Assembly: GCA_029882975.1 (NCBI GenBank)
Contig: JAOUJW010000023.1
Span: 1 to 64,000, forward strand
DNA length: 64,000 bases
Source: Gammaproteobacteria bacterium
GTDB taxonomy: Bacteria > Pseudomonadota > Gammaproteobacteria > SZUA-152
Reading direction: 5' to 3'
Part shown: positions 4,913-19,633 of the stretch, in pieces
How positions within the stretch are numbered: position 1 is the stretch's first letter
How the letters are laid out: each line of letters begins with the position of its first letter
The notes under the pieces: generated by a model
The model's database searches: none
Told to the model about the DNA's origin: nothing
The model's input: only the letters and a program-made list of their open reading frames with translations
Made by a program: the position numbers and the translations under genes

Positions 4913-5914
4913 ATGAATATGCGTCAATTTTTTGCCGTTACACTTTCCCTAATCGGGAGCAACCTTGCCCATGCTGCCGATACTCTGACCGTGTTTTCCG
5001 GGCGTAGTGACAAGTTTGTCAAACCCGTCATTGAACACTTTACCCAGGAAACCGGTATCCAAGTCCAATTGCATTCCGGAAAATCCACCGGTCTACTCAA
5101 CAAACTCCGCACGGAAGGCAAGCGCACCCAGGCTGACCTGTTTCTCAGTAATGACGCGGGTACATTGCAAAAAGGCAGTGATCTTGGCCTGTTTGCCATA
5201 TTGCCGGACAGTGCTCTGGAACCCATACCGTCCAACTACGCCGCTAAAGACAAAACCTGGGTGGGTCTGTCGGCACGTGCCCGGGTGTTAGTAGTGAACA
5301 GCAAAAGCAAATCAGCCAAAGCTGTCCAGTCGGTGTTTGACCTGGCAAAGCCGGAGTTTAAAAACAAACTGGCTATTACCAACAGCACCAACGAAAGCTA
5401 TATAGCCGGAGCTACCGTCTATATGCTGGCAGCGGGCAAAAAGAGAACCCAAGCTTGGCTGGAAGGCATGAAATCCAATGTAGACGGCAAGGTTTTTGAC
5501 AAACACAGCAAAATCGTCAAAGCGGTTGCCTCCGGTAAGAAAAGCATTGGACTGGTCAACCACTACTATGTCTATCGGCATCTGGCTAAACACCCCAAAG
5601 ATCCTGTCTCCGTTCTTATTCCTGATCAGGGTAAAGACGGTATGGGTGTCGCCTGGAATGTTGCGGGAATTGCCATTTCCAAACACAGCAAGAAAAAACA
5701 ACTGGCACAGAAACTGGTTGAATACCTGGTGTCCGAGCAGGGACAGCAACAATTCGCCGAAGAGAATCGCGAATACCCTACTCGCAAGGGTGTAGCGGCA
5801 AGCGCCGAAGTACCCGCTGCCGGGAGTTACAAAGTAGCCGACATCCCCATGTACCAATTAGGTACTCAGCGCAATGCAACCATTGATCTTCTGGAGGCGG
5901 TGGGCATGCCATAG
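4913..5914 (+). CDS. fbpA: Periplasmic ferric iron-binding protein (FbpA/FutA family)
   Basis: A 333-residue substrate-binding protein of the ferric iron ABC importer class. Residues 1-22 form a signal peptide (cleavage after NLAHA). The mature protein starts LTVFSGRSDKFVKPVI, the usual start of the family (YS-x-R), and the iron-coordinating tyrosine pair is seen in NHYYVYRHL. The start is preceded by AAGGAAG. A Fur box lies immediately upstream, so expression should rise on iron limitation. The permease gene follows after an intergenic hairpin, but no ATPase gene is adjacent. Confidence 0.93.
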   Translation: MNMRQFFAVTLSLIGSNLAHAADTLTVFSGRSDKFVKPVIEHFTQETGIQVQLHSGKSTGLLNKLRTEGKRTQADLFLSNDAGTLQKGSDLGLFAILPDSALEPIPSNYAAKDKTWVGLSARARVLVVNSKSKSAKAVQSVFDLAKPEFKNKLAITNSTNESYIAGATVYMLAAGKKRTQAWLEGMKSNVDGKVFDKHSKIVKAVASGKKSIGLVNHYYVYRHLAKHPKDPVSVLIPDQGKDGMGVAWNVAGIAISKHSKKKQLAQKLVEYLVSEQGQQQFAEENREYPTRKGVAASAEVPAAGSYKVADIPMYQLGTQRNATIDLLEAVGMP

Positions 5915-5952
5915 GCAGGTATCTGCTATAGAATTTAGCCGAAAATTTTATG

Positions 5953-5980
5953 GAGCGATTGCTCTTACGGGCAATTGCTC
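5953..5980 (+). other. Intercistronic hairpin between fbpA and fbpB
   Basis: GAGCGATTGC (5953-5962) and GCAATTGCTC (5971-5980) pair with one mismatch around an 8-nt loop. Hairpins at this place often protect the binding-protein mRNA and lower permease output. Its presence argues that fbpB starts at 5998 and not at the in-frame ATG at 5950. Confidence 0.5.
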
Positions 5981-5997
5981 AGGCATGTTGTAACGAA

Positions 5998-7566
5998 ATG
6001 ACTAACAAAAAACTTGGCCCTTTGGCCATCACTGCCATCGCCGTAGTATTTCTGGCGGCCATACCGTTGCTGTTTGTAATCTACAATAGCCTGCAACTGG
6101 ATGCCTCCCAATGGGCCGGGTTATGGTCTAAACGCTTGCCGGAATTGCTTTGGAACACTCTGGCACTAGCGCTCTTGGTAGCTATTGGATGTTTCATTTT
6201 AGGCGTTAGTGCTGCGTGGTGGATAGCCCGCTATGAGTTTCCGGGGCGGGAAATTGCTGCATGGCTTATGATTCTGCCCCTCACCATCCCTACATACGTA
6301 TTTGCCCATATCTACACCAGCATCCTGGAAGACGACGGTTGGCTCGGCCGTTTCTGGCATTTCATAATGGGGGCAAATACAGCGACTCCTGATATTTACA
6401 ATATAGGCGGCGCCACCCTGGTGTTGTCCTTGGCTGGATTTTCCTATGTGTTCCTGATGGCCCGCTCAGCATTGTCGCACTCCACTCGCACTTTGGAGGA
6501 AGCGGCCAGGATTCAAGGCGCCAACAAATTGCAGGTGTTTTTTCAAATCAATTTGCCCTTGTTACGCCCGGCTATCGCCGCCGGTCTGGCAGTAGCCGTG
6601 CTGCATGTTTTGTCTGATTTCGGAGCAGTCAGCATGCTGCAGTACCAAACATTTACCCTGAGTATTTATCTACAAATGAGCGGCCGTTTTGACTACCAAG
6701 GAGCCGCCGGGTTGTCTATGGTTCTGGTACTGCTCAGCCTCACCTTTCTGGTGACAGAGCGGTTTTTCCGAGCCCAGCAACGCTACTACAGCGCTCGGCA
6801 GGCCCGTCGCCATATACCTCAAAAAACGTCCACCACCGTCACCGTATTAATTTGGTTTTGGTTGGGTCTTATCACCCTGTTTGCGTTTATTCTGCCACTG
6901 GCGTGGATGTTACACTGGAGCCTGGATGCCTGGTTGCAGGATGCCATTGACAGGGAATTCTGGACCTATACCACCAACTCAATCACCGTAGCTATATTAG
7001 CAGCAACGGCGGCGGTGATCTGCGCCTTTCCTATTGCATTCTACAATGCCAGAAAGAGATCCATGGGCAGCAGCCTGATCCTACAACTTTCCAGTGTAGG
7101 ATTTGTGTTGCCCGGTCCGGTTATCGCCCTGGGCATTATTAGCTTTATACTGGCCCAGCTTCCCGTGCTATACGGAGGGATGACGGCATTAATACTGGCT
7201 CTGGTGGTACGATTTCTACCTCTGGCGGTACAGTCTCAAGATGCCACCTTGCAACAACTGACACCGTCCATAGAGCAAGCGGGTCGAAACCTAGGGGCGG
7301 GCCCCCTGGAAAACCTGTGGTTGGTGATTTTACCAATGATACGTTCCGGTATGGCCACAGCCTGGGTGTTGGTCTTTATCGACGCTTTGAAAGAATTACC
7401 CGCCACTCTCATATTGCGTCCTACGGGTTTTGATACCTTGCCTGTGCGTATCTGGATAGAGGCCAGCGAGGAAATGTTGGAGCTGGCAGCTCCGGCCGCT
7501 CTGATGCTTGTCGTTGGCACACTACCTATAATTTGGGTTTTGATGAAAAATAACCAAAAGACGTGA
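5998..7566 (+). CDS. fbpB: Ferric iron ABC transporter permease (fused double permease)
   Basis: An inner-membrane permease of about 522 residues, built from two homologous halves of roughly six helices each, as in FbpB/AfuB/FutB. Both ATPase-contact (EAA) loops are visible: EEAARIQGANKLQVFFQINLP in the first half and IEQAGRNLGAGPLENLWLVILP in the second. It would pass Fe3+ delivered by the fbpA product. The frame extends to an ATG at 5950, but that ATG sits on the intergenic hairpin; the ATG at 5998 begins MTNKKLGPLAIT and leads straight into the first helix. Shine-Dalgarno is weak for both. No fbpC ATPase follows. Confidence 0.9.
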   Translation: MTNKKLGPLAITAIAVVFLAAIPLLFVIYNSLQLDASQWAGLWSKRLPELLWNTLALALLVAIGCFILGVSAAWWIARYEFPGREIAAWLMILPLTIPTYVFAHIYTSILEDDGWLGRFWHFIMGANTATPDIYNIGGATLVLSLAGFSYVFLMARSALSHSTRTLEEAARIQGANKLQVFFQINLPLLRPAIAAGLAVAVLHVLSDFGAVSMLQYQTFTLSIYLQMSGRFDYQGAAGLSMVLVLLSLTFLVTERFFRAQQRYYSARQARRHIPQKTSTTVTVLIWFWLGLITLFAFILPLAWMLHWSLDAWLQDAIDREFWTYTTNSITVAILAATAAVICAFPIAFYNARKRSMGSSLILQLSSVGFVLPGPVIALGIISFILAQLPVLYGGMTALILALVVRFLPLAVQSQDATLQQLTPSIEQAGRNLGAGPLENLWLVILPMIRSGMATAWVLVFIDALKELPATLILRPTGFDTLPVRIWIEASEEMLELAAPAALMLVVGTLPIIWVLMKNNQKT

Positions 7567-7596: not shown

Positions 7597-7896
7597 TTAC
7601 TGCCCGAGTTCGTGCTTCTCATAAAACTCCACTTGCCGCTGTAGTACATCTCTGTCCACAGGTGACATGACTTCTTCTACCATGGTATTAAGCTCCACCG
7701 GTTTAGTATCCATCTCGGTTTTTTTCCACGGCACTATATACAACACTTTGGGTAATTCAGTAGCCCCCCGAACCTTGATCTCCTCCAACTCGATACGTGT
7801 TTCTGCCTGCAACGTTACAGGCAAGCCTAGCCCAGCAATGGAAATAAGCACAATAATCGAAACGGATTTAAACGGGTTCACCACCATTGACCTCAT
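7597..7896 (-). CDS. Small secreted protein, last gene of the envelope cluster
   Basis: A 99-residue protein with a signal-peptide-like N-terminus (hydrophobic stretch IIVLISIAGLGLPVTLQA, cleavage near residue 31). The mature part is about 68 residues, polar and acidic, with no motif that I recognise. An internal ATG at codon 4 is an alternative start. It follows the 983-codon TPR lipoprotein frame by 14 bp and is evidently the promoter-distal gene of the same transcript. Function unknown; a small periplasmic accessory of the TPR proteins is a guess from position. Confidence 0.65.
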   Translation of the reverse strand: MRSMVVNPFKSVSIIVLISIAGLGLPVTLQAETRIELEEIKVRGATELPKVLYIVPWKKTEMDTKPVELNTMVEEVMSPVDRDVLQRQVEFYEKHELGQ

Positions 7897-7910
7897 ATCA
7901 TCTACCCCAA

Positions 7911-10850
7911 TCAGTTCATGTTAACCGCATACACATCACTGCGCTCGGTCTTACCATACCTTACCGGATTCAATTTTTTCAAAGCCGAAAAACTTTTTTC
8001 CACCCATTCATCGTACACACCATCAGAAGCTCTACCTGTGTTGGTTTCATGAATCTTGATGGCTTTTTCCTCAAATGGATATGCCTGTTCTTCAATCAAT
8101 AAATCGTACTCTTCCAATTCTTCCGGACTTAATCCTTTAGGCCGCTCTGAATCAAACAAGCCTCTACTGAAGTCCCTATAAACTTCGGCAATGCGATAAG
8201 TCGATGCGGTGGTAATCTTTTGCACACCGTAGTTTGCAGCGTTGGTATAAGCTTCTATGGTCAAATTCAGCAACTTTTTCTTCTTTTTCAGGTTTTCTTT
8301 TAGAGGTAGTACCAATTTAACGTTTTGGTATTTCTTGAACGTGGGCTCCGCCAGTTCCAGGGTTGCATTGGCGGCGAGAAAGCGTGTACGTTCTGTGCTT
8401 TTTCCATCTTTATCCGCAGTAATAATCTCATTCAACCAATAACGGCGTTTATTCAACTTCGACTGTGCTTTATATATGTCCGCGAGTTTCAACCGAGTTT
8501 CCACTGCCTCTTCTGTAGGGTCTGGGAACAAAGAGATGTATTCTTTATATATCCCTACCAGCATGTCTATTTTTTTGACTTTTTCATACATATCGGCGGT
8601 TTGCAGGATCATCAGGCGTTTTTTCTCCGGATCTTTCTCCCTACGATAAATATCCACATACACTGCCGCTGCATTGGTCAATTTTCCAGTCTTCTCATAA
8701 GCCAAGGCGAGATACCGGGTGATATTACCCGCAAACTCGTGATAAGGATATAACTGCAAAAACCGGTTAAACACGGGGATCGATCTATCCCAGTTTTCCG
8801 ACTTTGCCAGCACCACTGCAGCATCGTACTCTGCGGTTACCCGGATGGAAGCGCCCGGCGCCAGATCGGCAATGCGTAAAAAATGTTTCGCTGCCAGTTC
8901 TGCATCACCGGCTTGCCGTGCAGCATCACCCTGCTGATATACCGCCGCAGCCAATCGCTCAATGTGGTCATTACGATCAGGGTCATTACGTTCACCCAAG
9001 GCTAAACGCTTTAGGGTGGCGCTTTCCGCTGCCTCATAGTCTTTCAACTCAAAATAGGATGCCGCCAATATTGCCCAGGACTTCAAGTACAGTTTTTTAT
9101 GCTCTCCCGGCTGTTTTTCTTTCAGCTTTGTCAGGCGCATCCCCACCGTAATCGCATCTTTATATTGTTTTAAATTGACGAAATCCTCCGCCACCTTAAG
9201 CAAAACCGTCGGTACGCGCTTATCCTCCGGATAGTGATCAGAAAAATTCAAAGACGCGGTGATAATTTCCATTTGCTTATCTTGTCGCGCCCGATCATCG
9301 CGCATTTCACTTAATTGCTTTTTGTAAGCAAGTATGGCGGCATAACCCGCCTCGGCACTTTTATCAAACGCGCTGTAATTGTACGAAGTCTTTTCAAATT
9401 CCGAAGCGGCAGCACCGTAATCCCCCACTGCAAGCAGACTTTCCGCCAGTAGAAAATTCATCTCCGCCGCTTTCTGATCCCGCGGGAAAGAACGAATGTA
9501 TTCTCTATACCAATGAATAGCATTTTTCAAATTACCCACACCGCTATCCTTGAGACCCAAAGCCAAGTAGTGCTCCGCCAAATCCTCAATGTTTTTCTTG
9601 ATATGCGGGCTGATAGTCCCTAGTAATTCCCTGTCTTGGCGCGACCAGAAGGGCTTGCCAATGCCGTATTGACTTACAAACTCTTCCTTGGCCTCAGTGA
9701 CCGCTTTGGGAAATCCACCCTTCTCAAATATCTCTATCACTTTTACAAAAAATAATGGTGCTTGCACGGAACTTGGAAAACGCGCCGTGTAGGATTTTAA
9801 AGTGGCCGCGGCGTCTTCGGTTCGATCCTGCCGCAAATACAACTCGCTTAAACGTTCGTATAATATGTGCTCGTAAGGTTTTTGGCCAAACTTACGTGAA
9901 AAACGCTGAATGGATTCAGACCCTTGTTGATATGAATGTGACAAACTGACGACGCGAAAAGTATCGTCTAAAATCTCTTTTTCACTACGAGTGAACTGCT
10001 CATATTGTTTACCATTTTGAAAATGATAATCCAGCAAGCGGTAAAAATATTTCGAAGCCTCATCGAGGCGATTCAGCTTAAACTGCGCCCAACCCTGTTT
10101 GTACAAGGCCCGCTCATAATATTCAGACTGTCGATTATGCAAAATGGCACGGTAGGCCTGTACAGCTTTTTTGTATTTTCGCAACGAAAACAAAATTTCA
10201 CCACGGCGAAACTCCACTTCTTCAATGCGCTTGGTTTCAGGAAAATCCCGAATCAAGTGAGTCAAAGCCGCCAAAGCTTTTTCCGACTCTCCGGTCAAAT
10301 CGTATGCCCGGGCCAACTGATACAGTATACGTTCATTATCTTTGCTATGAGGAAAACGATTGATAAGTTCTTCATACTGACCCGCAACATTTTGATAGTT
10401 TTCATCGTCAGCAGACACCATCCTGTTGTTCAACCCCGGTTCCACGTGCTCGCGTTTGGGAATCGTTTTTTGGTTGATACTCGTGGTTGGTGTAAATACC
10501 TTGCGTTCCTCGGCAACAGAACGTTTTTCCTGCTGACGCTCTAACTGCAAATCCGCGAGCCGCTCCATGGCTCTTGCACGCAATTCCTGGTTGTCTGTGG
10601 ATTCCAAAAAACGTTGATAACTGAGCCGGGCCTCCTGTACTGATGCTTGAGGCAAAGGTTCCGCTTTTACTAAAATAACATCCTGAGACAATGACCCCAG
10701 AGTGGCTTCTTTCTTACCACCGGTACTTTTACAAGCCGTCAGCACTGCCATCAGCACCACAGTCAGCATTATCATTTGCAGCGCCGCTTTTGCGCCCGTT
10801 ATGCCAGTTTTGAACTCAACACCAGCCATCTTCCTACCCCGTATTGTCAT
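7911..10850 (-). CDS. Large TPR-repeat lipoprotein
   Basis: About 979 residues. An N-terminal hydrophobic segment ends in the lipobox LTAC, followed by KSTGG, so the product is a lipoprotein facing the periplasm. The rest is a long alpha-helical solenoid of TPR-like repeats, for instance ALAALTHLIRDFPETKRIEEVEFRRG and AIPVFNRF-type elements, in the style of YfgC/BamD/Tol-Pal-associated scaffolds. The frame extends to a GTG at 10862; I prefer the ATG at 10850. It lies 20 bp after a second TPR gene. TPR proteins of this size are typically scaffolds within envelope machines; partners here are probably the other cluster products. The specific function is unknown. Confidence 0.85.
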   Translation of the reverse strand: MTIRGRKMAGVEFKTGITGAKAALQMIMLTVVLMAVLTACKSTGGKKEATLGSLSQDVILVKAEPLPQASVQEARLSYQRFLESTDNQELRARAMERLADLQLERQQEKRSVAEERKVFTPTTSINQKTIPKREHVEPGLNNRMVSADDENYQNVAGQYEELINRFPHSKDNERILYQLARAYDLTGESEKALAALTHLIRDFPETKRIEEVEFRRGEILFSLRKYKKAVQAYRAILHNRQSEYYERALYKQGWAQFKLNRLDEASKYFYRLLDYHFQNGKQYEQFTRSEKEILDDTFRVVSLSHSYQQGSESIQRFSRKFGQKPYEHILYERLSELYLRQDRTEDAAATLKSYTARFPSSVQAPLFFVKVIEIFEKGGFPKAVTEAKEEFVSQYGIGKPFWSRQDRELLGTISPHIKKNIEDLAEHYLALGLKDSGVGNLKNAIHWYREYIRSFPRDQKAAEMNFLLAESLLAVGDYGAAASEFEKTSYNYSAFDKSAEAGYAAILAYKKQLSEMRDDRARQDKQMEIITASLNFSDHYPEDKRVPTVLLKVAEDFVNLKQYKDAITVGMRLTKLKEKQPGEHKKLYLKSWAILAASYFELKDYEAAESATLKRLALGERNDPDRNDHIERLAAAVYQQGDAARQAGDAELAAKHFLRIADLAPGASIRVTAEYDAAVVLAKSENWDRSIPVFNRFLQLYPYHEFAGNITRYLALAYEKTGKLTNAAAVYVDIYRREKDPEKKRLMILQTADMYEKVKKIDMLVGIYKEYISLFPDPTEEAVETRLKLADIYKAQSKLNKRRYWLNEIITADKDGKSTERTRFLAANATLELAEPTFKKYQNVKLVLPLKENLKKKKKLLNLTIEAYTNAANYGVQKITTASTYRIAEVYRDFSRGLFDSERPKGLSPEELEEYDLLIEEQAYPFEEKAIKIHETNTGRASDGVYDEWVEKSFSALKKLNPVRYGKTERSDVYAVNMN

Positions 10851-10870
10851 TATCCAACCCACCCGCTCAT

Positions 10871-12742
10871 CTATTGGTTGGAACCCAAATCTTGCAAATG
10901 CGCCACCGCAAAATGGGCCTGATCCAGATAACCCCGCAAACGCTGCTTGAGCCAGTTCAATTCGTTAATCACTTGTTGTTGTAATTGCGCTTTTTGCGCA
11001 ACAATCAAAGTGTCTACCCTTTTATCCAAACGCGTTACACGGCGCTTGTATTTGTCAATCTTCTTGCTGTACCCATCAAACTGCCGCGGCGCCATCACCT
11101 TGGCCCGCTTCACAGTTTTTTGCTGCGTAATGGTTTTATTAAGCTCCGTATCCAAATCCCTTAATGCTCTCTTGAATTTCCACAAACGCGGTTTAATGTT
11201 TGTGCCAATGCTCCACTCCAGCAATCCGCTGTACAAGCGAAACTTGTCCGCCATTTGGTTGTACTGATCCTTAGGCATTATTGATTTGTTACGTCGAAGG
11301 AAATCTTGAATTTTATCCAAACGACCGATTGAGATCCGCTCTGCCGGAGTAGCCAGTGCCCGCAAATCCCCTTCGCTCTCGATTCGATCCAACTCTTCTT
11401 TGTAAAAGTTTCTCTCGTCACGTAACACGGCGACGCGATGATTATTTTTCTCCGGTGCCAGTTGTGGCAGGCGGCTTTCGTAATTTTCCTTTCGGCTTTT
11501 CAGGATGTAGCGAAACGTCTCCAAATCCGAGGACCGATTCCGCAATGTGCTTTTCAAATATTGTAAATGTTTTAGGCTGTCAATAGATTGCTGAAAGCTG
11601 TTAGTTGCCACTAAATTGTACAAAAATCTCGCCTCAACATTATTGGGTAAATCCGACAACTCCCAACTGATCTTATTTTCATACTCGGTAATATTGCTTA
11701 ATAACTTTTTCCACAAGGCGCCGGTTTTGACCACCTTAATCGCATTATCCAACTTTTGCGTATCTTCCTCAAAAATTGCGATGGCCGATTGATAGGCATC
11801 AAAGGATTGCCGGTAAGCCTGCAACCGCTCATATGCATAGGGAACCGCCAGAAGTGCTTCATACACTGCACCGTCCGAACGCTCTTTCGCTGCCAAACGA
11901 GTCCAAGGCACAAGGGCTGCCTGGTATTCCTGTTGGAATGCCTCGCTCCAACCCAAACCCAGCAATGCCTTATTAGTAAACGGGCCGCTAAGCCGGACTC
12001 TCTGAAAAAACGCTCTGGCTTTCGAGTAACTGTCATTGGCTAACAAGGCAAACCCCAGGGCCATATTTGCCTTATCGCGTAACGCTTTCAGCTCCGGCAA
12101 GTTACTTTCCAGACGCCCCACGGCATCCAGATAATCCGTACCTTCCACTTCCCGTCGACTCTGATACAGAGCAACTCCCATATTGTATTTTACATACTGG
12201 GAAAACTGCCCCCGCTCCGGAAACTTACTAAGCATTTGTACTGCCTGCTGGTACTCTCCACGTGCCATGAGCACATTGGCTCTTTGCAGCTGCGTGGCAC
12301 CCATTAACTCGTCTGGGATGTCCTTCTGAATTTCCTCCAGAGCACGGATAGCATCCTCAAAAAGACCTTTTTGATACCGTACCTTGGCAATTTGATACCA
12401 GGCTCGATCCTGTATTTCCGGAGAGATCCCTTGTTTGGTCAGCCGCCGAAATACCTTTTCGGCTTCCACATGCATACCATAGGACAAATACATACTACCC
12501 AACCAAATGTCGACGTCACGCTTATGGTGGGGGACTTTGTCCAAATCTTGAGCCACTTGAAGTTTGACGATGGCATCAAAGTGACTACCGTTATAAAATT
12601 CGTACAGCACGTCACCAAAATAAGGGTCTTCAACCACTAATTCTTTTTTATCAAAATACTCCGCGTGTACAGACGAGATAAATACACACAAACACAATAT
12701 ACCCCAGTATTTGATTGTTTTTTCTATTATTGATTTAGTCAT
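10871..12742 (-). CDS. Periplasmic TPR-repeat protein
   Basis: A 623-residue exported protein. The signal peptide spans about residues 1-27 (cleavage after SVHA). Residues 40-330 contain TPR-type helix pairs (for example AWYQIAKVRYQKGLFEDAIRAL), and the C-terminal 300 residues are strongly charged and predicted coiled coil (many K/R/E/Q heptads around TELNKTITQQKTVKRAK). It precedes the TPR lipoprotein by 20 bp and is probably co-transcribed with it. I know similar tandem TPR genes next to Tol/Exb-like or gliding-type envelope clusters, but no named family fits with certainty. Confidence 0.85.
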   Translation of the reverse strand: MTKSIIEKTIKYWGILCLCVFISSVHAEYFDKKELVVEDPYFGDVLYEFYNGSHFDAIVKLQVAQDLDKVPHHKRDVDIWLGSMYLSYGMHVEAEKVFRRLTKQGISPEIQDRAWYQIAKVRYQKGLFEDAIRALEEIQKDIPDELMGATQLQRANVLMARGEYQQAVQMLSKFPERGQFSQYVKYNMGVALYQSRREVEGTDYLDAVGRLESNLPELKALRDKANMALGFALLANDSYSKARAFFQRVRLSGPFTNKALLGLGWSEAFQQEYQAALVPWTRLAAKERSDGAVYEALLAVPYAYERLQAYRQSFDAYQSAIAIFEEDTQKLDNAIKVVKTGALWKKLLSNITEYENKISWELSDLPNNVEARFLYNLVATNSFQQSIDSLKHLQYLKSTLRNRSSDLETFRYILKSRKENYESRLPQLAPEKNNHRVAVLRDERNFYKEELDRIESEGDLRALATPAERISIGRLDKIQDFLRRNKSIMPKDQYNQMADKFRLYSGLLEWSIGTNIKPRLWKFKRALRDLDTELNKTITQQKTVKRAKVMAPRQFDGYSKKIDKYKRRVTRLDKRVDTLIVAQKAQLQQQVINELNWLKQRLRGYLDQAHFAVAHLQDLGSNQ

Positions 12743-12772
12743 AACTCTAGAGCCGCCCCTGTATTCAGCTCC

Positions 12773-13318
12773 TTACTCCCATTCTTTAACCACAAATTCC
12801 GGCTGTAACTTTTGAGATCTATCGGTGATTTTCAGCTCAATATATTTGGTGCCCGCCGATTTTTGAAACACATACGTGGTAGCTCTTTTATACTCCCGCC
12901 CATTGGGACCCGGACCACGAAACGTAGCCACCAATTCGCGACGCCCCTTCTTTACATTCCCCATCCATAATCGTTGCACGCCTCCTCGTCCCAGAGCATC
13001 GGTTTCCTGCTTGGTATAGAGGTAGTTGGTCACTACTTTATCATCCAATTTCAGCTGCACCGAGTCCAAACGAAAAAAATTACCTACATCCGCTGACAAA
13101 AATACAGCGACTTGGGTACTGCTTGGAAACAACAACTCTTCCTCCAGAATGAATAGTTCCTTATTCAATTCCAACACTTCTTTCTTCAAAGCTTGAACTT
13201 TACCGTCTAAAGTTTGCGCTTTTTTGGAATTGTCCGCTGCCAGCGCGGAACTCACTGCCAACATGCTTAGCGCCAGAACCAGTGAAAGGCGCAATGTTGA
13301 TTTGATTTTATTACTCAC
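12773..13318 (-). CDS. Secreted coiled-coil/beta-domain protein of the TPR cluster
   Basis: A 181-residue protein with a clear signal peptide (residues 1-28, cleavage after SSALA). A short coiled coil follows (LDGKVQALKKEVLELNKELFILEEELL, first 20 residues of it alternate charged and Leu positions), then a compact beta-rich domain of about 110 residues (from TQVAVFLSADVG to the end). Homologues I recall are mislabelled as AraC-type regulators; nothing here supports DNA binding, and an exported protein cannot be one. It sits 30 bp upstream of the TPR gene. Function unknown, probably a periplasmic component of the same assembly. Confidence 0.75.
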   Translation of the reverse strand: MSNKIKSTLRLSLVLALSMLAVSSALAADNSKKAQTLDGKVQALKKEVLELNKELFILEEELLFPSSTQVAVFLSADVGNFFRLDSVQLKLDDKVVTNYLYTKQETDALGRGGVQRLWMGNVKKGRRELVATFRGPGPNGREYKRATTYVFQKSAGTKYIELKITDRSQKLQPEFVVKEWE

Positions 13319-13386
13319 TGTTTTACACTCCGACCATTCATATTAAATCAAAAAAACCCGGTTGCTTAAGTCTCAAATAACAGCAT

Positions 13387-14592
13387 TCAATACCACAAAG
13401 ACATATAGATTTGTAATATTTTTGCGGTAAAACTGTACCGGGGCGCATTGACTATTTGAGATTCGTCGGCCAGGCTCACATCCCGGACATCACGATAGTT
13501 GTCATAGTCAAAACGAACCAAATCCAACGATGTATTAACCGTACCCTTGTCGAATTTCCACCAGCCTTGATTCATAAACTCGTAAGAAACGCCGCCGCCT
13601 ATTGTGGTACTGCTAAATGAGCTCAATTCCTTGTCACGCGCCATAAACACTTTTTTAGAATCAAAGTAGTTGCTATAAAAGGAAGCAGCACCCTGAGAAT
13701 ATTGCCGAAAATGAAAATCCATAATGAGCGTTTGTCCCAGGGGCTGAGTAAAACCCAGGTCAAACATATTGGCCCGAATGTCCCAGGAATCGGTATAAGA
13801 GCGTACTTCGAATTTCATGGCTGCCCGCCAGGGCAAATGATATCGGGCCCGTAGCGACACGGCACTACTGGTTCGAGTACCAGGATACTGCTCCGTGGTT
13901 GTTAATACCGCCAAACTGGCATCTCGATAAAATACACTTCGGTAAGGATTATTCAAGTACCCTTCGTCGGTAATCACCTCTAATCCCAGGTTAGCGATAA
14001 GGTTTTTGCTTAATATTTGCGTTACGCCGAACCGAAATTGGTGCCGATCCACCGATCCCACGATTGCTGAGCCCTGCTTGTATTTTACCGGCCCCGATGT
14101 ATCGTAAATATTCCGTCGTACCGAATCAAAACCGCGAGAATAACCCAGTGAAACCGTCGTCAGATCACCAAAAATACTGTGACTTATCCCCAGGTGATAA
14201 CTACCCGCCACATAATCGCTTTCCTCGCTGGACGTGTAGGCCAGGCTCACATTGGAATTGTCATTTATGTGCTCCATACTGATACTGTATTCTTCCCGCC
14301 TTTCAGTATAAGGACTGGCAAAGGTTTCTACATCGATTGAGGCACTGCTAATGGAGTCGACATAATAATGAGCAGACATGGAGGTGTTTTTTCCAACCTC
14401 ACTACGTGCAGTGACAGAAGGTCCGTTGATAGATACTCCACCACCTTCATAGGAATGATATAAACTATCGACTTGATCCTCAGGCAAAATGGCTGCTGTC
14501 AAAGGCAAACTGCATAATAGGGCCGCCAGTAACATCACCCATAAGGGGGAGCGCCTGACTGGCTTGGATTTTTCCTTGCAAAGGTATTTCAT
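13387..14592 (-). CDS. DUF3570 outer-membrane beta-barrel protein
   Basis: A 401-residue exported protein with a signal sequence (hydrophobic core about residues 17-33) and alternating amphipathic strands throughout, for example YSFTAKILQIYMSLWY at the end. The terminal aromatic residue (Tyr) is the usual recognition signal for BAM-dependent barrel insertion. I assign DUF3570 from overall pattern and from the directly preceding DUF4266 gene, with which it overlaps by one base (TGATG); the two families commonly travel together with TlpA-type thioredoxins and sometimes ApbE. Function unknown; a link to extracellular redox chemistry is suggested by neighbours only. Confidence 0.8.
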   Translation of the reverse strand: MKYLCKEKSKPVRRSPLWVMLLAALLCSLPLTAAILPEDQVDSLYHSYEGGGVSINGPSVTARSEVGKNTSMSAHYYVDSISSASIDVETFASPYTERREEYSISMEHINDNSNVSLAYTSSEESDYVAGSYHLGISHSIFGDLTTVSLGYSRGFDSVRRNIYDTSGPVKYKQGSAIVGSVDRHQFRFGVTQILSKNLIANLGLEVITDEGYLNNPYRSVFYRDASLAVLTTTEQYPGTRTSSAVSLRARYHLPWRAAMKFEVRSYTDSWDIRANMFDLGFTQPLGQTLIMDFHFRQYSQGAASFYSNYFDSKKVFMARDKELSSFSSTTIGGGVSYEFMNQGWWKFDKGTVNTSLDLVRFDYDNYRDVRDVSLADESQIVNAPRYSFTAKILQIYMSLWY

Positions 14593-14837
14593 CAGTTACA
14601 CCCGCAACCACCGCCTTGTCCAAGCTCGGCGCCACGAGCCGCTTCCCTGGCTTGATACACATGATTCAAATAGGAATCTGAAATCGGATTACGTGAAAAA
14701 CTCATGATGGGATCGGATAAATTAGCGCGTTCATACGGTTTCACCCAAGGTTCTAAACCACAAGCGCTTAAGACCAATACCAGCAGAGTAATAACTGCAA
14801 CACGCATCTTGTTAAATGACTTTGACGTACTGGCCAT
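14592..14837 (-). CDS. DUF4266 small lipoprotein
   Basis: An 81-residue lipoprotein. The lipobox is LSAC at about residues 23-26, followed by GLEPWVKPYERANLSDPIMS, the conserved W-x-x-P-YER segment of DUF4266, and it ends in a glycine/cysteine-rich tail GGGCGCN. The tail cysteines are conspicuous next to a thioredoxin-like gene. It is packed tightly between tlpA-like (2-bp gap) and DUF3570 (1-bp overlap) genes, so the three are surely one translational block. No biochemical role is known to me. Confidence 0.85.
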   Translation of the reverse strand: MASTSKSFNKMRVAVITLLVLVLSACGLEPWVKPYERANLSDPIMSFSRNPISDSYLNHVYQAREAARGAELGQGGGCGCN

Positions 14838-14839
14838 AA

Positions 14840-15361
14840 CTATTCCTGTAACAACTCTCTAACCTGCTTCAGGTATTCGTCTTCATACCCTGGCAGATAC
14901 CCCATATGTATGTACCGGATATTGCCGTCCCGGTCCACGAGAACAGTTGTTGGCATGGCGTCGATGTCAAATTTTTTGCTGACAGTATTTTCCGAATCCA
15001 GCAAAATTGGAAACACGATTTTCAAATCCCGCACCATGATTTTGCCTTTACGGAAATCCTCTTCCACATTCACACCCAGCAGCTTGAAACCCTTATCGCG
15101 AAACTTAAGATAGATATCATTAAGCAAAGGCATTTCATCACGACAAGGCCCACACCAGGATGCCCAAAAATTAATCAGAACCACTTCACCTCTTAATTCA
15201 CTCAAGCGAATATTAGTTCCCTGATTGCTTTTTAACGTAAAATCAGGTGCTTCTTTCAAGGGTTTGATTTCGGCAGCGACCGGCAACACCACAAGTCCCG
15301 CCAATACAACCATCAACAAATTTTGGATAATTTTTTTCATTTGTTGTGCAGAATAATTCAC
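14840..15361 (-). CDS. TlpA-family periplasmic thioredoxin
   Basis: A 173-residue exported thiol-disulfide oxidoreductase. Residues 1-30 form a signal peptide; the thioredoxin fold follows with the active site WCGPC (Cys70, Cys73) in NFWASWCGPCRDEMP and the cis-Pro loop in DAMPTTVLVDRDG. This is the TlpA/ResA/AhpC-TSA class, which keeps periplasmic cysteines (for example haem-binding CxxCH) reduced. Its neighbours include a diheme cytochrome-like protein and a Cys-tailed lipoprotein, either of which could be its client. The start ATG at 15361 gives a normal signal peptide; the ATG at codon 8 is an alternative. Confidence 0.9.
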   Translation of the reverse strand: MNYSAQQMKKIIQNLLMVVLAGLVVLPVAAEIKPLKEAPDFTLKSNQGTNIRLSELRGEVVLINFWASWCGPCRDEMPLLNDIYLKFRDKGFKLLGVNVEEDFRKGKIMVRDLKIVFPILLDSENTVSKKFDIDAMPTTVLVDRDGNIRYIHMGYLPGYEDEYLKQVRELLQE

Positions 15362-15401
15362 TTGTTTACCTTTTATGCCTTTATAGTCAGCCAGGCAGCG
15401 T

Positions 15402-16085
15402 TTAGAAAAACCAACTCGCGCCTATGGTATATTCAATATTATGCTTGATTTCCGCATCTCCCATAATATCAGACTCAAAAATATGATCCCGAAAATCCAC
15501 TTGTGCCGCCATCCAATCGGTTAACACAATTCGATAGCCAATACCCCCTACCAGAGTAAAATAGTCATCTCCCGCAAACTGTGTGGATCCGGCGCCTACA
15601 CTCACATATAAGGTGGTAACAAAGGCGGTATCGTCACCCATAAATGCTTCACCCGGAAACAGGTTGTACCCGACGCTGACGTCGTAATACACCAGCTCTC
15701 GCTCCTGTTCCGTGAGTAAATCAAAATTAAACAGCTTTTCCGCAGAAGAAGGCCCTGCTTTTGAAAAACCCATGGTGGCATCGATAAAAAAAGTTTCTGT
15801 TAACAACAAACCCACACGGGCACCATAAACCGGGTGAACACCGAAGTCCTCAATGCTATAAGAACCCCCAAATATTCCAATGAGAAAATCTTCCGTATCG
15901 ATACGCGCCAATTTAATCTTGTTGCGTTTAACGGTCGGGGTTATCAAAGGCTCTTCCAATGGAGCCTCGGCATCACCGGAGGTTTCCTCAGTTATGTTTG
16001 CACCATCCGCCTCAGCGGCTGACACATTCCCCAATGAGAACCCCAAAGTTAAAACTAGTAGAAAAAGGAAAACCCGATTTTCCAT
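15402..16085 (-). CDS. Outer-membrane beta-barrel protein (OMP_myx_plus-like)
   Basis: A 227-residue exported protein: signal peptide to about residue 24 (cleavage after VSAA), an acidic linker rich in E/A/P, then an eight-strand-like barrel ending in ASWFF, a terminal aromatic as in BAM clients. The layout (linker, then IGIFGGSYSIEDFG and later strands) resembles the outer-membrane beta-barrel domain described from Myxococcales and some gammaproteobacteria (TIGR04565 as I recall). It overlaps the 3' end of the preceding barrel gene by 31 bp and is similar to it in architecture, suggesting an old duplication. Confidence 0.8.
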   Translation of the reverse strand: MENRVFLFLLVLTLGFSLGNVSAAEADGANITEETSGDAEAPLEEPLITPTVKRNKIKLARIDTEDFLIGIFGGSYSIEDFGVHPVYGARVGLLLTETFFIDATMGFSKAGPSSAEKLFNFDLLTEQERELVYYDVSVGYNLFPGEAFMGDDTAFVTTLYVSVGAGSTQFAGDDYFTLVGGIGYRIVLTDWMAAQVDFRDHIFESDIMGDAEIKHNIEYTIGASWFF

Positions 16086-16852
16086 TCCAGAAAATCTCCA
16101 TTATTGTTGTCGCTGATAAAAACTATGTTTTGTTTAACATCTGCCCGAAAAAAAACCCGTTTACTCATGTATTGCCTATAACCCAAACCCACACTGGCAA
16201 ACAAATCACTGGTGGGATTAGCAAAGACAAAGGAACTTTTTGGTTTGTTGCGCATATAGCCACCACCCAAAGTAAAAAAAGGCGCGCTGTCCCAGGTAGG
16301 AAAAGGGTTAGACAAAATATTTATCCGTGCCACCAAAGTTTCGGTAAATTGGCCCGTTGCTTTGGATATTTCCAATTCCGTTGCCAGATTGTCATTAAAA
16401 TTTAAACCTGCATATACTCCCATAATGGCGGAACCTTCAAAATCCCCAAAGTTAATACCTCCCTCGTAGGTTCTTGCACCAAAATGTTCTTTTTTAATTC
16501 GTTCGAACTGAGTGGTCACGCCGGGCGCAGACAGGGTTTTCTCCATTTCGTCAATCAGCACCCATCCTTCCTTACCCAAACGATCCCGAACCTTAAACCA
16601 ATCGCCTTGACGCACCAGCACTTCCACCCACTCATGCCGATCCACCACATGGTACACAGGATAACCCTTCCCTGCTCCCGTATGCAGCTCTATAAACGGC
16701 TCTGCGACGATAACCCGGGGATAACTCGCCGCATCATCGGTCGCCGCAGCAACGTGTGCCGCCCCCAGCATCATACAGATCCAGCAAAACGCAAAGAACC
16801 AAACCTGGATAACAGGCGGTTTCATACCAGAATTCAATATAACTCCTGTCAC
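16055..16852 (-). CDS. SH3-domain plus outer-membrane beta-barrel protein
   Basis: A 265-residue exported protein. After a signal peptide (cleavage near AAA at residue 37), residues about 45-105 form a bacterial SH3 domain (FIELHTGAGKGYPVYHVVDR ... WFKVRDRLGKEGWV), the type that often binds peptidoglycan or cell-wall peptides. The remaining 150 residues are a beta-barrel ending in KIGFSFFY with a terminal aromatic. It would anchor the outer membrane to the cell wall. It is the second gene of the cluster after the HzsA-like lipoprotein, and its 3' end overlaps the next barrel gene. Confidence 0.8.
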   Translation of the reverse strand: MTGVILNSGMKPPVIQVWFFAFCWICMMLGAAHVAAATDDAASYPRVIVAEPFIELHTGAGKGYPVYHVVDRHEWVEVLVRQGDWFKVRDRLGKEGWVLIDEMEKTLSAPGVTTQFERIKKEHFGARTYEGGINFGDFEGSAIMGVYAGLNFNDNLATELEISKATGQFTETLVARINILSNPFPTWDSAPFFTLGGGYMRNKPKSSFVFANPTSDLFASVGLGYRQYMSKRVFFRADVKQNIVFISDNNNGDFLEWKIGFSFFY

Positions 16853-16882
16853 TTTGTTTATGCCCGCCCTGCGGTCATTCCG

Positions 16883-19597
16883 CTACGGAATGTTAGAGTA
16901 CCGAGCTCCCTGATCAACCCATTCTTGAATCAGTAACATCTCGATAGGTTCCAGCATCATACTATGGTCCACAGTTCCGGCGCCCGATGTCATTTTTGCA
17001 AAGAACGGTCCATCTAATCGCGAGTTATTGGAAGGACGAATATGACGATCACGATCTACCGTACCATCACCACCGTTGGCGATAGGATCGGCGATGGGAT
17101 CACTATTATCCACCAATGGCACTGGATCCAGCGTGGTCACGCCGTTCACTGTGTTGGGAGACGTCAGACGAACCAAAGCTGTCCCCACAACCACCCTGAC
17201 AAAATCATCGTCCAGCAATTCATAATAAGATGCAAACCCGGTTTCGCCATCGACTTCAATACTGGCCGTACTGCCACCGCGAGTCAGCGTCAATTGCCCT
17301 GCAGGCACTTGCGCCGCCATCAAAGCATCCTGTTCAGCGTGGCAGGTAACACATGCACTGATAAGCACCGGATCCGGGTCACGATCACGTTCCCAAAGGG
17401 GCTGAATATGGGTTTCGTAGTCAATGATTGTACGGCAAACATTGCTTATGCAGTTGTTAATATCCACAGGCGCTGCAGTTGTCAGTGTCGCATAACTCAC
17501 TTGATAATTTAATGACGTAGTATCCGTACTTGGAAGCTCCGTTCCCATAGGATCACGCCAATAGTCCTTAAAGGCCAAGCCCTGATCCAGATCAGCATAT
17601 AATATATTCCATTGATGCAAAGTTTCCGCCAAAGTCTGCGCCACAGGCACCGGCGCATTCATGTCGGCATTGGGCACGGCACCGGTGGTTCCCAGATACA
17701 TGGGCGCCGCCTTAGAGTGATTTTCATGACAACCGACACATTCCACGGTTTTACCGGCTTTAACTTGCAGCCAGTTATTGTGGCTACGGAACTTACGCCC
17801 ATATATATCGGTCAACTCGATAGCAAAAGGCCAGTTCGCCGGCACTCGCATCACCACGGAGCCATCCGCCTCTACCTGTTGATAACCGCTGATTTCGCGC
17901 ATATTACGCACAGTACCTTGGTTCGCCACAATGATGGGAGCGCGCACAATTCTGGCAAACCGTACCGCGGGACGCTGAGGTAAGTTCAACGCCAACATGG
18001 CGGGAATATCCACCTGGGCACCGGCGGCACCGCAGCTGGCCGTGTTACAAAGCAATCGTTCATCCCCCATCAAAGCACCATTCCCGACCAAAGCCAAGTT
18101 GCTGGTATCGTAAACACTGCGTATTTTGATTAAGCCCATATTGTTATCCAAAACTTCACTGCTTACTTGGTCTGCTACCGTTTCCGGATAATTCCCCAAG
18201 GTCACGCGATCCACCAAGGCTACCGGATCGGTAATGGTCATTCCCGCTTCGGGTAGCACAATATTGCGCTGGGCACCGGTATTGGCGTCAAATATCCAAA
18301 CCCCATAGGCCGGGGGAGCCGCAAAATCCGGGTCACTTAAATCTACCCCACGCAGAGCACAGGGACGACGATTTCCGTTCACATCCTCGGATTCGCAAGG
18401 TGCCCAGGACACCAGTAGTCGGTTCGTATTGTCCCAAAGAGGAAACGGTGTGGTATAGCGACCACGGCGGGAATAGCCGCTTCCGCGGGTCACCTGGTTT
18501 CCCGTTAATGATATCTGGCCTGCAGTTTCGTCGCTTGTTGAGTTGTCACGTGGCTGATCGATATCTGCAAAATTTACGTAATCGATTCGTATTAGATCAC
18601 CGCCGCTAAAGGTATCCTGCACGTTCATGATGTTGGCCACCAATTGGCCGTTTTGTGTCTGCTTGGCGTTCAAAAAAACATCATCGCTGACGGCAGGATC
18701 ATGACTGTGGCCGCCATACAATATGTTGTTACCGGTCCCATCAGGGTTCACCACAAACAAATCAAAATTCTGACCGCGAAATTGTTCCCAGCGGGAATAG
18801 ACGATACGACCGTCACTCAACACACTGGGGTTCAACTCATGGCTATTATTAAAAGAAATCTGCTCCAAAGCCTGGTCACGGGGGTTAAGAATGTGCAAAT
18901 TGGCCGTCGGTTCGTTAACCCGCTCTGTAATCAGCGGTGTCGTATCCACGCTGATCCCTTCCAAAACCAGAACAACATCTGATTTACCGCTGACTCGATC
19001 AGAACTGAAAACCACCCGACCATCGGGTAAGTAAGCAGGATCAAAATCATTACCCCGTATAGCCACCGTATCCAGGGAAATCAAACGCTGTAGAGTTCCG
19101 TCTTCAATACCCCCATCTTCAGGAATGACGTACTCCCACAAATCCCACTTAGGCTGCCCAGTTGGAGGGGGGTTGGTATAATCTCCTTCTTTAGCGGCAA
19201 ACACGATGCGCTTACCGTCAAAAGAAACATCCGGCGTAGCCACATCCCCCGCCTGACGCACCACATTATTCCCGTTCATAACAGGTGCCAGTAGATTTAC
19301 TCTGTTGGGATTTGGATCATTGGGATAAAAAGGAATATTCGCGGTGACATTAAATTCCCGGGAATCGTTGGCGGCAAACTCGCGGATAAATAAATGGCCA
19401 CCGGGTTTATAACGGATGGCGTTAAATGGATCCTGACCATTATCGATGTCATCCAATGGACGTTTAACATAGGCAATGGGAACATCCAATCTGAAATTAC
19501 CCAGCAATTCCAGGTTTTGTTCCTGCCCGCAACCCAGTAACAACGCTATACTGAGAAAAACGATAAGCGCATAACGATAAATTGTTCTAACTTGCAT
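16883..19597 (-). CDS. HzsA-related diheme c-type cytochrome lipoprotein with beta-propeller
   Basis: About 904 residues. The start at 19597 gives a signal with lipobox LLGC (Cys23); an upstream frame to 19633 is less likely. The N-terminal half contains WD40/PD40 (TolB-like) blade motifs such as PDVSFDGKRIVFAA, DPAYLPDGRVVFSSDR and NPSVLSDGRIVYSRW, i.e. a beta-propeller. Two haem c motifs follow, CVGCH at residues 620-624 and CVTCH at 749-753. This architecture matches proteins annotated as HzsA-related (hydrazine synthase alpha-like), which are widespread outside anammox bacteria, so hydrazine chemistry is not implied. It opens the cluster. Substrate unknown; it is probably an outer-membrane-attached or periplasmic redox enzyme. 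Confidence 0.85.
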   Translation of the reverse strand: MQVRTIYRYALIVFLSIALLLGCGQEQNLELLGNFRLDVPIAYVKRPLDDIDNGQDPFNAIRYKPGGHLFIREFAANDSREFNVTANIPFYPNDPNPNRVNLLAPVMNGNNVVRQAGDVATPDVSFDGKRIVFAAKEGDYTNPPPTGQPKWDLWEYVIPEDGGIEDGTLQRLISLDTVAIRGNDFDPAYLPDGRVVFSSDRVSGKSDVVLVLEGISVDTTPLITERVNEPTANLHILNPRDQALEQISFNNSHELNPSVLSDGRIVYSRWEQFRGQNFDLFVVNPDGTGNNILYGGHSHDPAVSDDVFLNAKQTQNGQLVANIMNVQDTFSGGDLIRIDYVNFADIDQPRDNSTSDETAGQISLTGNQVTRGSGYSRRGRYTTPFPLWDNTNRLLVSWAPCESEDVNGNRRPCALRGVDLSDPDFAAPPAYGVWIFDANTGAQRNIVLPEAGMTITDPVALVDRVTLGNYPETVADQVSSEVLDNNMGLIKIRSVYDTSNLALVGNGALMGDERLLCNTASCGAAGAQVDIPAMLALNLPQRPAVRFARIVRAPIIVANQGTVRNMREISGYQQVEADGSVVMRVPANWPFAIELTDIYGRKFRSHNNWLQVKAGKTVECVGCHENHSKAAPMYLGTTGAVPNADMNAPVPVAQTLAETLHQWNILYADLDQGLAFKDYWRDPMGTELPSTDTTSLNYQVSYATLTTAAPVDINNCISNVCRTIIDYETHIQPLWERDRDPDPVLISACVTCHAEQDALMAAQVPAGQLTLTRGGSTASIEVDGETGFASYYELLDDDFVRVVVGTALVRLTSPNTVNGVTTLDPVPLVDNSDPIADPIANGGDGTVDRDRHIRPSNNSRLDGPFFAKMTSGAGTVDHSMMLEPIEMLLIQEWVDQGARYSNIP

Positions 19598-19633
19598 GCT
19601 ACCCCCGGGAGTCCACTCAGACCGAGCCCGCAC

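Follow-up and report, generated by a model that had tools for sequence, protein, structure and literature searches.

A ten-gene envelope operon with a redox module as a candidate motor-less half of a Glt/Agl-class machine

Introduction

What might a dihaem lipoprotein, outer-membrane barrels, a thiol-disulfide oxidoreductase and large TPR proteins, encoded side by side in a gammaproteobacterial genome, be doing together? The ten genes concerned lie in a 64,000-nucleotide stretch of DNA, here called the window (positions 1 to 64,000 of contig JAOUJW010000023.1, assembly GCA_029882975.1). A previous sequence-only reading had proposed an envelope-spanning machine or a redox conduit, and had suggested a resemblance to Glt- and Exb-like loci. 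The Glt/Agl core (GltC, D, E and G together with AglR, Q and S) occurs standalone in Gammaproteobacteria, and its function was left open (Luciano 2011, PMC3169522); the main text of that paper names neither cytochrome nor thioredoxin. Our literature search found no later answer on the function of the standalone gammaproteobacterial core, and no description of a Glt-like core combined with a redox module.

Gene content of the locus

The region from 7597 to 19633 of the window contains ten open reading frames, all on the minus strand, separated in transcription order by 30, -31, 40, 2, -1, 68, 30, 8 and 14 nt (negative values denote overlaps), so that the largest gap is 68 nt.

P1, 16883..19633, minus strand: HzsA-like dihaem beta-propeller lipoprotein (PD40 and HZS_alpha, two CXXCH, lipobox Cys)
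P2, 16055..16852, minus strand: SH3 domain and outer-membrane beta-barrel (SH3_3, OMP_b-brl, weak TIGR04565 match of 30 bits)
P3, 15402..16085, minus strand: outer-membrane beta-barrel (TIGR04565, OMP_myx_plus, 140 bits, cut-off 60)
P4, 14840..15361, minus strand: TlpA/ResA-like periplasmic thiol-disulfide oxidoreductase (WCGPC, AhpC/TlpA match)
P5, 14592..14837, minus strand: small DUF4266 lipoprotein (75 bits), ending in GGGCGCN (CXC)
P6, 13387..14592, minus strand: DUF3570 predicted outer-membrane protein (141 bits)
P7, 12773..13318, minus strand: exported protein with a helix and a beta-sandwich, opening the Glt-like core
P8, 10871..12742, minus strand: TPR protein, resembling GltC in position and architecture (PMC3169522, PMC4488436)
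P9, 7911..10862, minus strand: large TPR lipoprotein, resembling GltD in position and architecture
P10, 7597..7896, minus strand: small exported protein with a conserved LPKVLYIVPWK motif, last gene here

Judged by eye, the N-termini of all ten proteins resemble export signals, with a lipobox Cys in P1, P5 and P9. The ORF calls thus bore out the earlier description of ten exported proteins encoded on one strand with short gaps or overlaps, and the domains it had named (HZS_alpha, PD40, SH3_3, OMP_b-brl, TIGR04565, AhpC/TlpA, DUF4266, DUF3570 and TPR) were all matched, TIGR04565 having been assigned to the right genes, above the cut-off for P3 and weakly for P2. The start given for P1 (19597) is an internal ATG, and the first start of the ORF is a GTG at 19633. 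From the spacing, the ten genes are likely to form one transcript; promoter-like and terminator-like matches showed no excess over shuffles. Convergent with the operon, at 4913-7566 of the window, lie genes whose products resemble, by eye, the binding protein and the permease of an iron(III)-type ABC transporter, and the permease is retained as a neighbour in several members of the family.

P1 gave an HZS_alpha match of 48 bits in Pfam, and its best Foldseek match was HzsA, the hydrazine synthase alpha subunit (5c2v, E 7e-25, over most of the length), from a model with a pLDDT of only 57. The two proteins share the propeller and the HZS_alpha middle domain, but P1 is a lipoprotein with about 15% identity to HzsA, the sequence match spans 66 residues, and its 57.6 bits fail the equivalog cut-off of 800. 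Lipobox C35 and both CXXCH motifs are invariant in 22 aligned relatives; haem binding and localization are predicted.

The P2 and P3 genes overlap, both products match TIGR04565 (P3 being the genome's only match above the cut-off), and both precede the GltC-like P8; BLASTP found no similarity between P2 and P3. In Myxococcus, GltB and GltA are barrels that stabilize each other and bind the TPR protein GltC (PMC4488436). By this arrangement, P3 is possibly GltA-like and P2 possibly its GltB-like partner, the likeness of P2 to GltB being one of size, gene order and published description.

P4, P5 and P6 are adjacent and of the same types as the proteins of ApbE-DUF3570-DUF4266-thioredoxin-like flavinylation clusters, a known putative electron-transfer set (Meheust 2021, PMC8238504), including the DUF4266 CXC motif; the GGGCGCN C terminus is identical in every P5 sequence listed. 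The main text of that study names neither gliding nor ExbB. The two sets differ in that the thioredoxin family there is PF13899, whereas here it is AhpC-TSA/TlpA, and in that ApbE is found in many loci related to the window but not in the window operon, the genome's ApbE genes lying on contigs C8 and C9. At the two flavinylation positions of other DUF3570 proteins, P6 has SSAS and TFAS, which do not fit the consensus [S/T]GA[S/T]; flavinylation of P6 is therefore doubtful. A site alignment showed the site to be mostly diverged in relatives as well, whether or not their locus has ApbE. A separate DUF4266-DUF3570-ApbE set, on contig C9 of G000 around 135704-137811 (L037, L080), has a DUF3570 protein that keeps a TGAS flavinylation-type site.

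The remaining genes belong to the Glt-like core; no family was assigned to P7 or P10. P7 has paralogues in both of the genome's motor-bearing clusters described below (L004 and L005) and in nearly all cores; its AlphaFold model reached a pLDDT of 87.5, a fold search with it returned nothing below E 0.001, and a sequence search of the PDB returned chance matches only. P8 and P9 are paralogues of TPR genes in motor-bearing cores and are likened to GltC and GltD by their place in the cluster and their architecture. P10 sits just ahead of ExbB in motor-bearing clusters. No equivalents of AglR, Q and S (ExbB/ExbD/ExbD) were found past P10 in the window or in the family loci read, no GltG with an AgmX/PglI C-terminal domain was found in the window, and no GltE equivalent was found between P9 and P10 in loci of the window's family.

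Motor-bearing relatives of the locus

Searching the window's genome with P8 revealed two further loci, both complete motor clusters, on contigs C3 (L005) and C5 (L004). Their order is P7-like, P8-like, P9-like, TPR lipoprotein, P10-like (with VPWK), ExbB, ExbD, ExbD and a TonB-like protein. The TonB-like proteins contain the AgmX/PglI domain (NF033768, 64 and 66 bits, cut-off 40) and match the GltG model below its equivalog cut-off; the TPR lipoprotein of L005 matches the GltE model NF033758 weakly (41 bits, cut-off 225). The motor genes, the AgmX/PglI and GltG matches and the weak GltE match identify both clusters as Glt/Agl-like cores, like those that stand alone in Gammaproteobacteria (PMC3169522). 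The core on C5 is a different Glt-like system. It adjoins (L004, 1-16059) a gene for a 1398-aa protein and the start of one for a long surface-type repeat protein, which extends past the stretch read.

Within the window's GTDB family, the order P1 to P10 is kept: about a dozen relatives have the complete locus, and in the rest it is cut by contig ends. The order recurs in other families and is well beyond what chance would give. Where the contig reaches, the family loci adjoin gcvT and the ABC permease, with a few extra genes between in some species. Among the lineages examined, only this family has a locus that ends at P10, without GltE, motor and GltG. In a representative of another family (L064), P1-P6, ApbE, P7-P9, a GltE-like gene, P10, ExbB, ExbD, ExbD and GltG are contiguous, and the window genes are likewise contiguous with a motor in L107, L109, L115, L126, L135, L150, L151, L157, L172, L173, L176, L179, L207, L210 and L213. 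The statement that no motor genes are present therefore holds for the window itself but misleads, since the same genes run into ExbB-ExbD-ExbD-GltG in other lineages and two paralogous motor-bearing clusters occur in the window's own genome. The suggested Glt/Exb resemblance proved a correct lead, and the proposed check for co-occurring exbB, exbD and AgmX-PglI genes found them contiguous with the window genes in other lineages.

When 80 named loci and further genomes were mapped with profiles, this gene arrangement recurred as the consensus across many lineages, among them Piscinibacter, Aquabacterium and Sapientia. P1 is sometimes divergent, and the variable elements are ApbE, GltE and a second TlpA. 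Because the 10-kb flank truncates many of the 80 loci, missing P1-P6 genes there are not evidence of absence.

Co-occurrence and a partner operon

In a sample of 370 Gammaproteobacteria genomes, each at least 90% complete, about 90 gave a strong match to P9 and 55 to P1. All but one of the P1 genomes (54/55) also have a GltD-like P9 (Fisher p about 2e-39, with relatedness ignored), and the spread of this association over 30 families is a better argument for it than the p-value. The test proposed earlier, that the genes might not co-occur in other genomes, was thereby run, and the cluster survived it. P1 lies less than 19 kb from P9 in 41 genomes. Where the two are on different contigs (L161-L168), P1-P6 form an ordered module in 8/8 genomes, with no P4 seen in L164; all eight have P9 elsewhere, and the association therefore outlasts the loss of linkage. 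The only near case seen of a complete P1-P10 locus in a genome lacking any ExbB-ExbD-GltG set is G057 (C1, 1998599-2005715), in which P1 is in two pieces beside f3 (see below) and no P9 match was found in the genome; this is possibly a decaying locus. A 24315-aa frame in G010 contains a portion of a P9-like gene (C5, 87134-88000), which suggests withheld bases (N) next to it.

Clustering the unassigned neighbours of P1 yielded three recurrent proteins, encoded in the order f1-f0-f3. f1 has one CXXCH, with a PSD2/DUF1585 match in one of two sequences tested; f0, judged from 30 sequences, combines a LamG domain with two CXXCH; f3 has a twin-arginine-like start and no Pfam match. f3 was found in 52/370 genomes, 49 of them in common with P1. 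The window's genome has two f1-f0-f3 operons, on contigs C49 and C1, both unlinked. In G004, f3-f0-f1 directly follows the motor cluster; in the window's family such linkage was seen in one case (L070/L187).

A candidate motor in trans

By P9 search, a second core of the L005 type is present in the window's genome and in 23/23 other genomes of its family, and the window-type P9 occurs in about 20 of those 23, never alone. Motor genes were seen in all eight L005-type clusters whose contig allowed reading to the end (L005, L058, L070, L071, L072, L077, L192 and L195); the L196 contig ends before the motor, and the remaining L005-type cores of the family were recognized by P9 similarity alone. 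The L005-type motor on contig C3 is a candidate supplier in trans. That the family keeps both clusters would also follow from vertical inheritance alone, and the L005-type core keeps P7-P10 paralogues of its own, hence may be a separate machine.

In a tree of P8 and P9, the window type falls among Env-linked, motor-bearing cores, and the L005 type falls with cores lacking Env. Holding the two types together was mildly rejected (AU p 0.03) in a test that used 32 rows and a simpler model than the 48-row mixture tree and was chosen after the tree had been seen; support for the deep forks of the trees is weak (SH-aLRT 73-92). Given the placement and the AU result, local loss of GltE, AglRQS and GltG is therefore the simpler reading. 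A first P9 tree (support 82) had suggested duplication within the family followed by a split into envelope and motor halves, an idea that we dropped because the better-sampled P8+P9 tree, with its AU result, disagrees.

A precedent for a borrowed motor is Nfs of Myxococcus, which lacks a dedicated motor and relies on AglRQS instead (Wartel 2013, PMC3858216). Both are envelope complexes encoded without their own motor and paralogous to a motor-using cluster. Nfs, however, is a spore-coat machine with NfsE and NfsG, whereas the window locus has redox proteins and no GltE- or GltG-like gene; motor sharing was demonstrated for Nfs, whereas for the window locus we infer it.

Interpretation and alternatives

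Of the two functions proposed earlier, the envelope-spanning assembly is the better reading. We propose, with a probability of roughly 0.6, that the genes code for one half of a redox-equipped trans-envelope machine of the Glt/Agl class, the half in the periplasm and outer membrane, and that the motor acts in trans. Behind this proposal stand sequence comparisons, namely gene content, conservation, paralogy to motor cores, motor contiguity elsewhere and co-occurrence. The TPR proteins are arranged as in the Glt/Agl core (PMC3169522), of which the window's genome has complete motor-bearing paralogues; the window copy differs in having no GltE, AglRQS or GltG and in adding the six-gene barrel/redox module with its co-occurring cytochrome operon. 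The window's family would have lost the local motor, GltE and GltG genes, and the separate core on C3 would supply the motor. Proton flow through ExbB/ExbD would move a GltG-like arm, which would pull on P9 and P8, the TPR proteins, and these in turn on the P2/P3 barrel pair. Electrons would be handed on, either across the periplasm or at the surface, by P1 (dihaem), P4 (thiol), P5 (CXC) and P6, with the f1-f0-f3 cytochromes as probable partners, and this electron transfer may serve to modify or handle cargo moved by the machine.

The ten genes might instead form a complete, motor-free redox conduit, in which periplasmic electrons reach the dihaem lipoprotein at the surface by way of TlpA, DUF4266 and DUF3570, with the TPR proteins only as a scaffold. 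Such a conduit would fit the lack of a local motor, the occurrence of P1-P6 as an unlinked module, the two further co-occurring cytochrome-type proteins and the electron-transfer role proposed for DUF3570/DUF4266/thioredoxin clusters (PMC8238504). We nevertheless consider it unlikely: nearly all P1 genomes have a Glt-like core, the motor stands in the same gene run elsewhere, the two haems of P1 are few for a trans-outer-membrane wire, and the loci showed no multihaem protein of the MtrA/MtrC type.

The class relationship to Glt/Agl might also point to a gliding-motility apparatus, and the barrel pair ahead of a GltC-like TPR protein does resemble gltB-gltA-gltC (PMC4488436). Against this improbable reading, however, none of the genes identified in the loci resembles GltF, H, I, J or K. 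Nor, to our knowledge, have redox parts any role in gliding. Least probable, at slightly under one chance in ten, is that the cluster is a relic in decay, left over from a core whose motor was lost. The missing GltE, AglRQS and GltG and the diverged flavinylation site of P6 would agree with decay, but all ten ORFs are open, the haem, lipobox and CXC motifs are invariant, the gene order is kept across the family, and divergence of the P6-type site is common in relatives that keep both motor and ApbE.

More broadly, the locus may belong to a widespread, undescribed class of redox-coupled, proton-driven machines in Gammaproteobacteria and some Betaproteobacteria. We advance this broader proposal tentatively and rate it at somewhat less than even odds. 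The class would comprise some 18 genes (a Glt/Agl motor core, the six-gene barrel/cytochrome/thiol module and the three-gene cytochrome operon), would link mechanical work with outer-membrane electron transfer, and could share its motor in trans. The co-occurring redox module and cytochrome operon define a gene set and point to the kind of work to be sought. One carrier of a complete locus, although no GltE-like gene was detected in it, is a named strain in culture, Sapientia aquatica SA-152 (L150), and the question therefore becomes testable.
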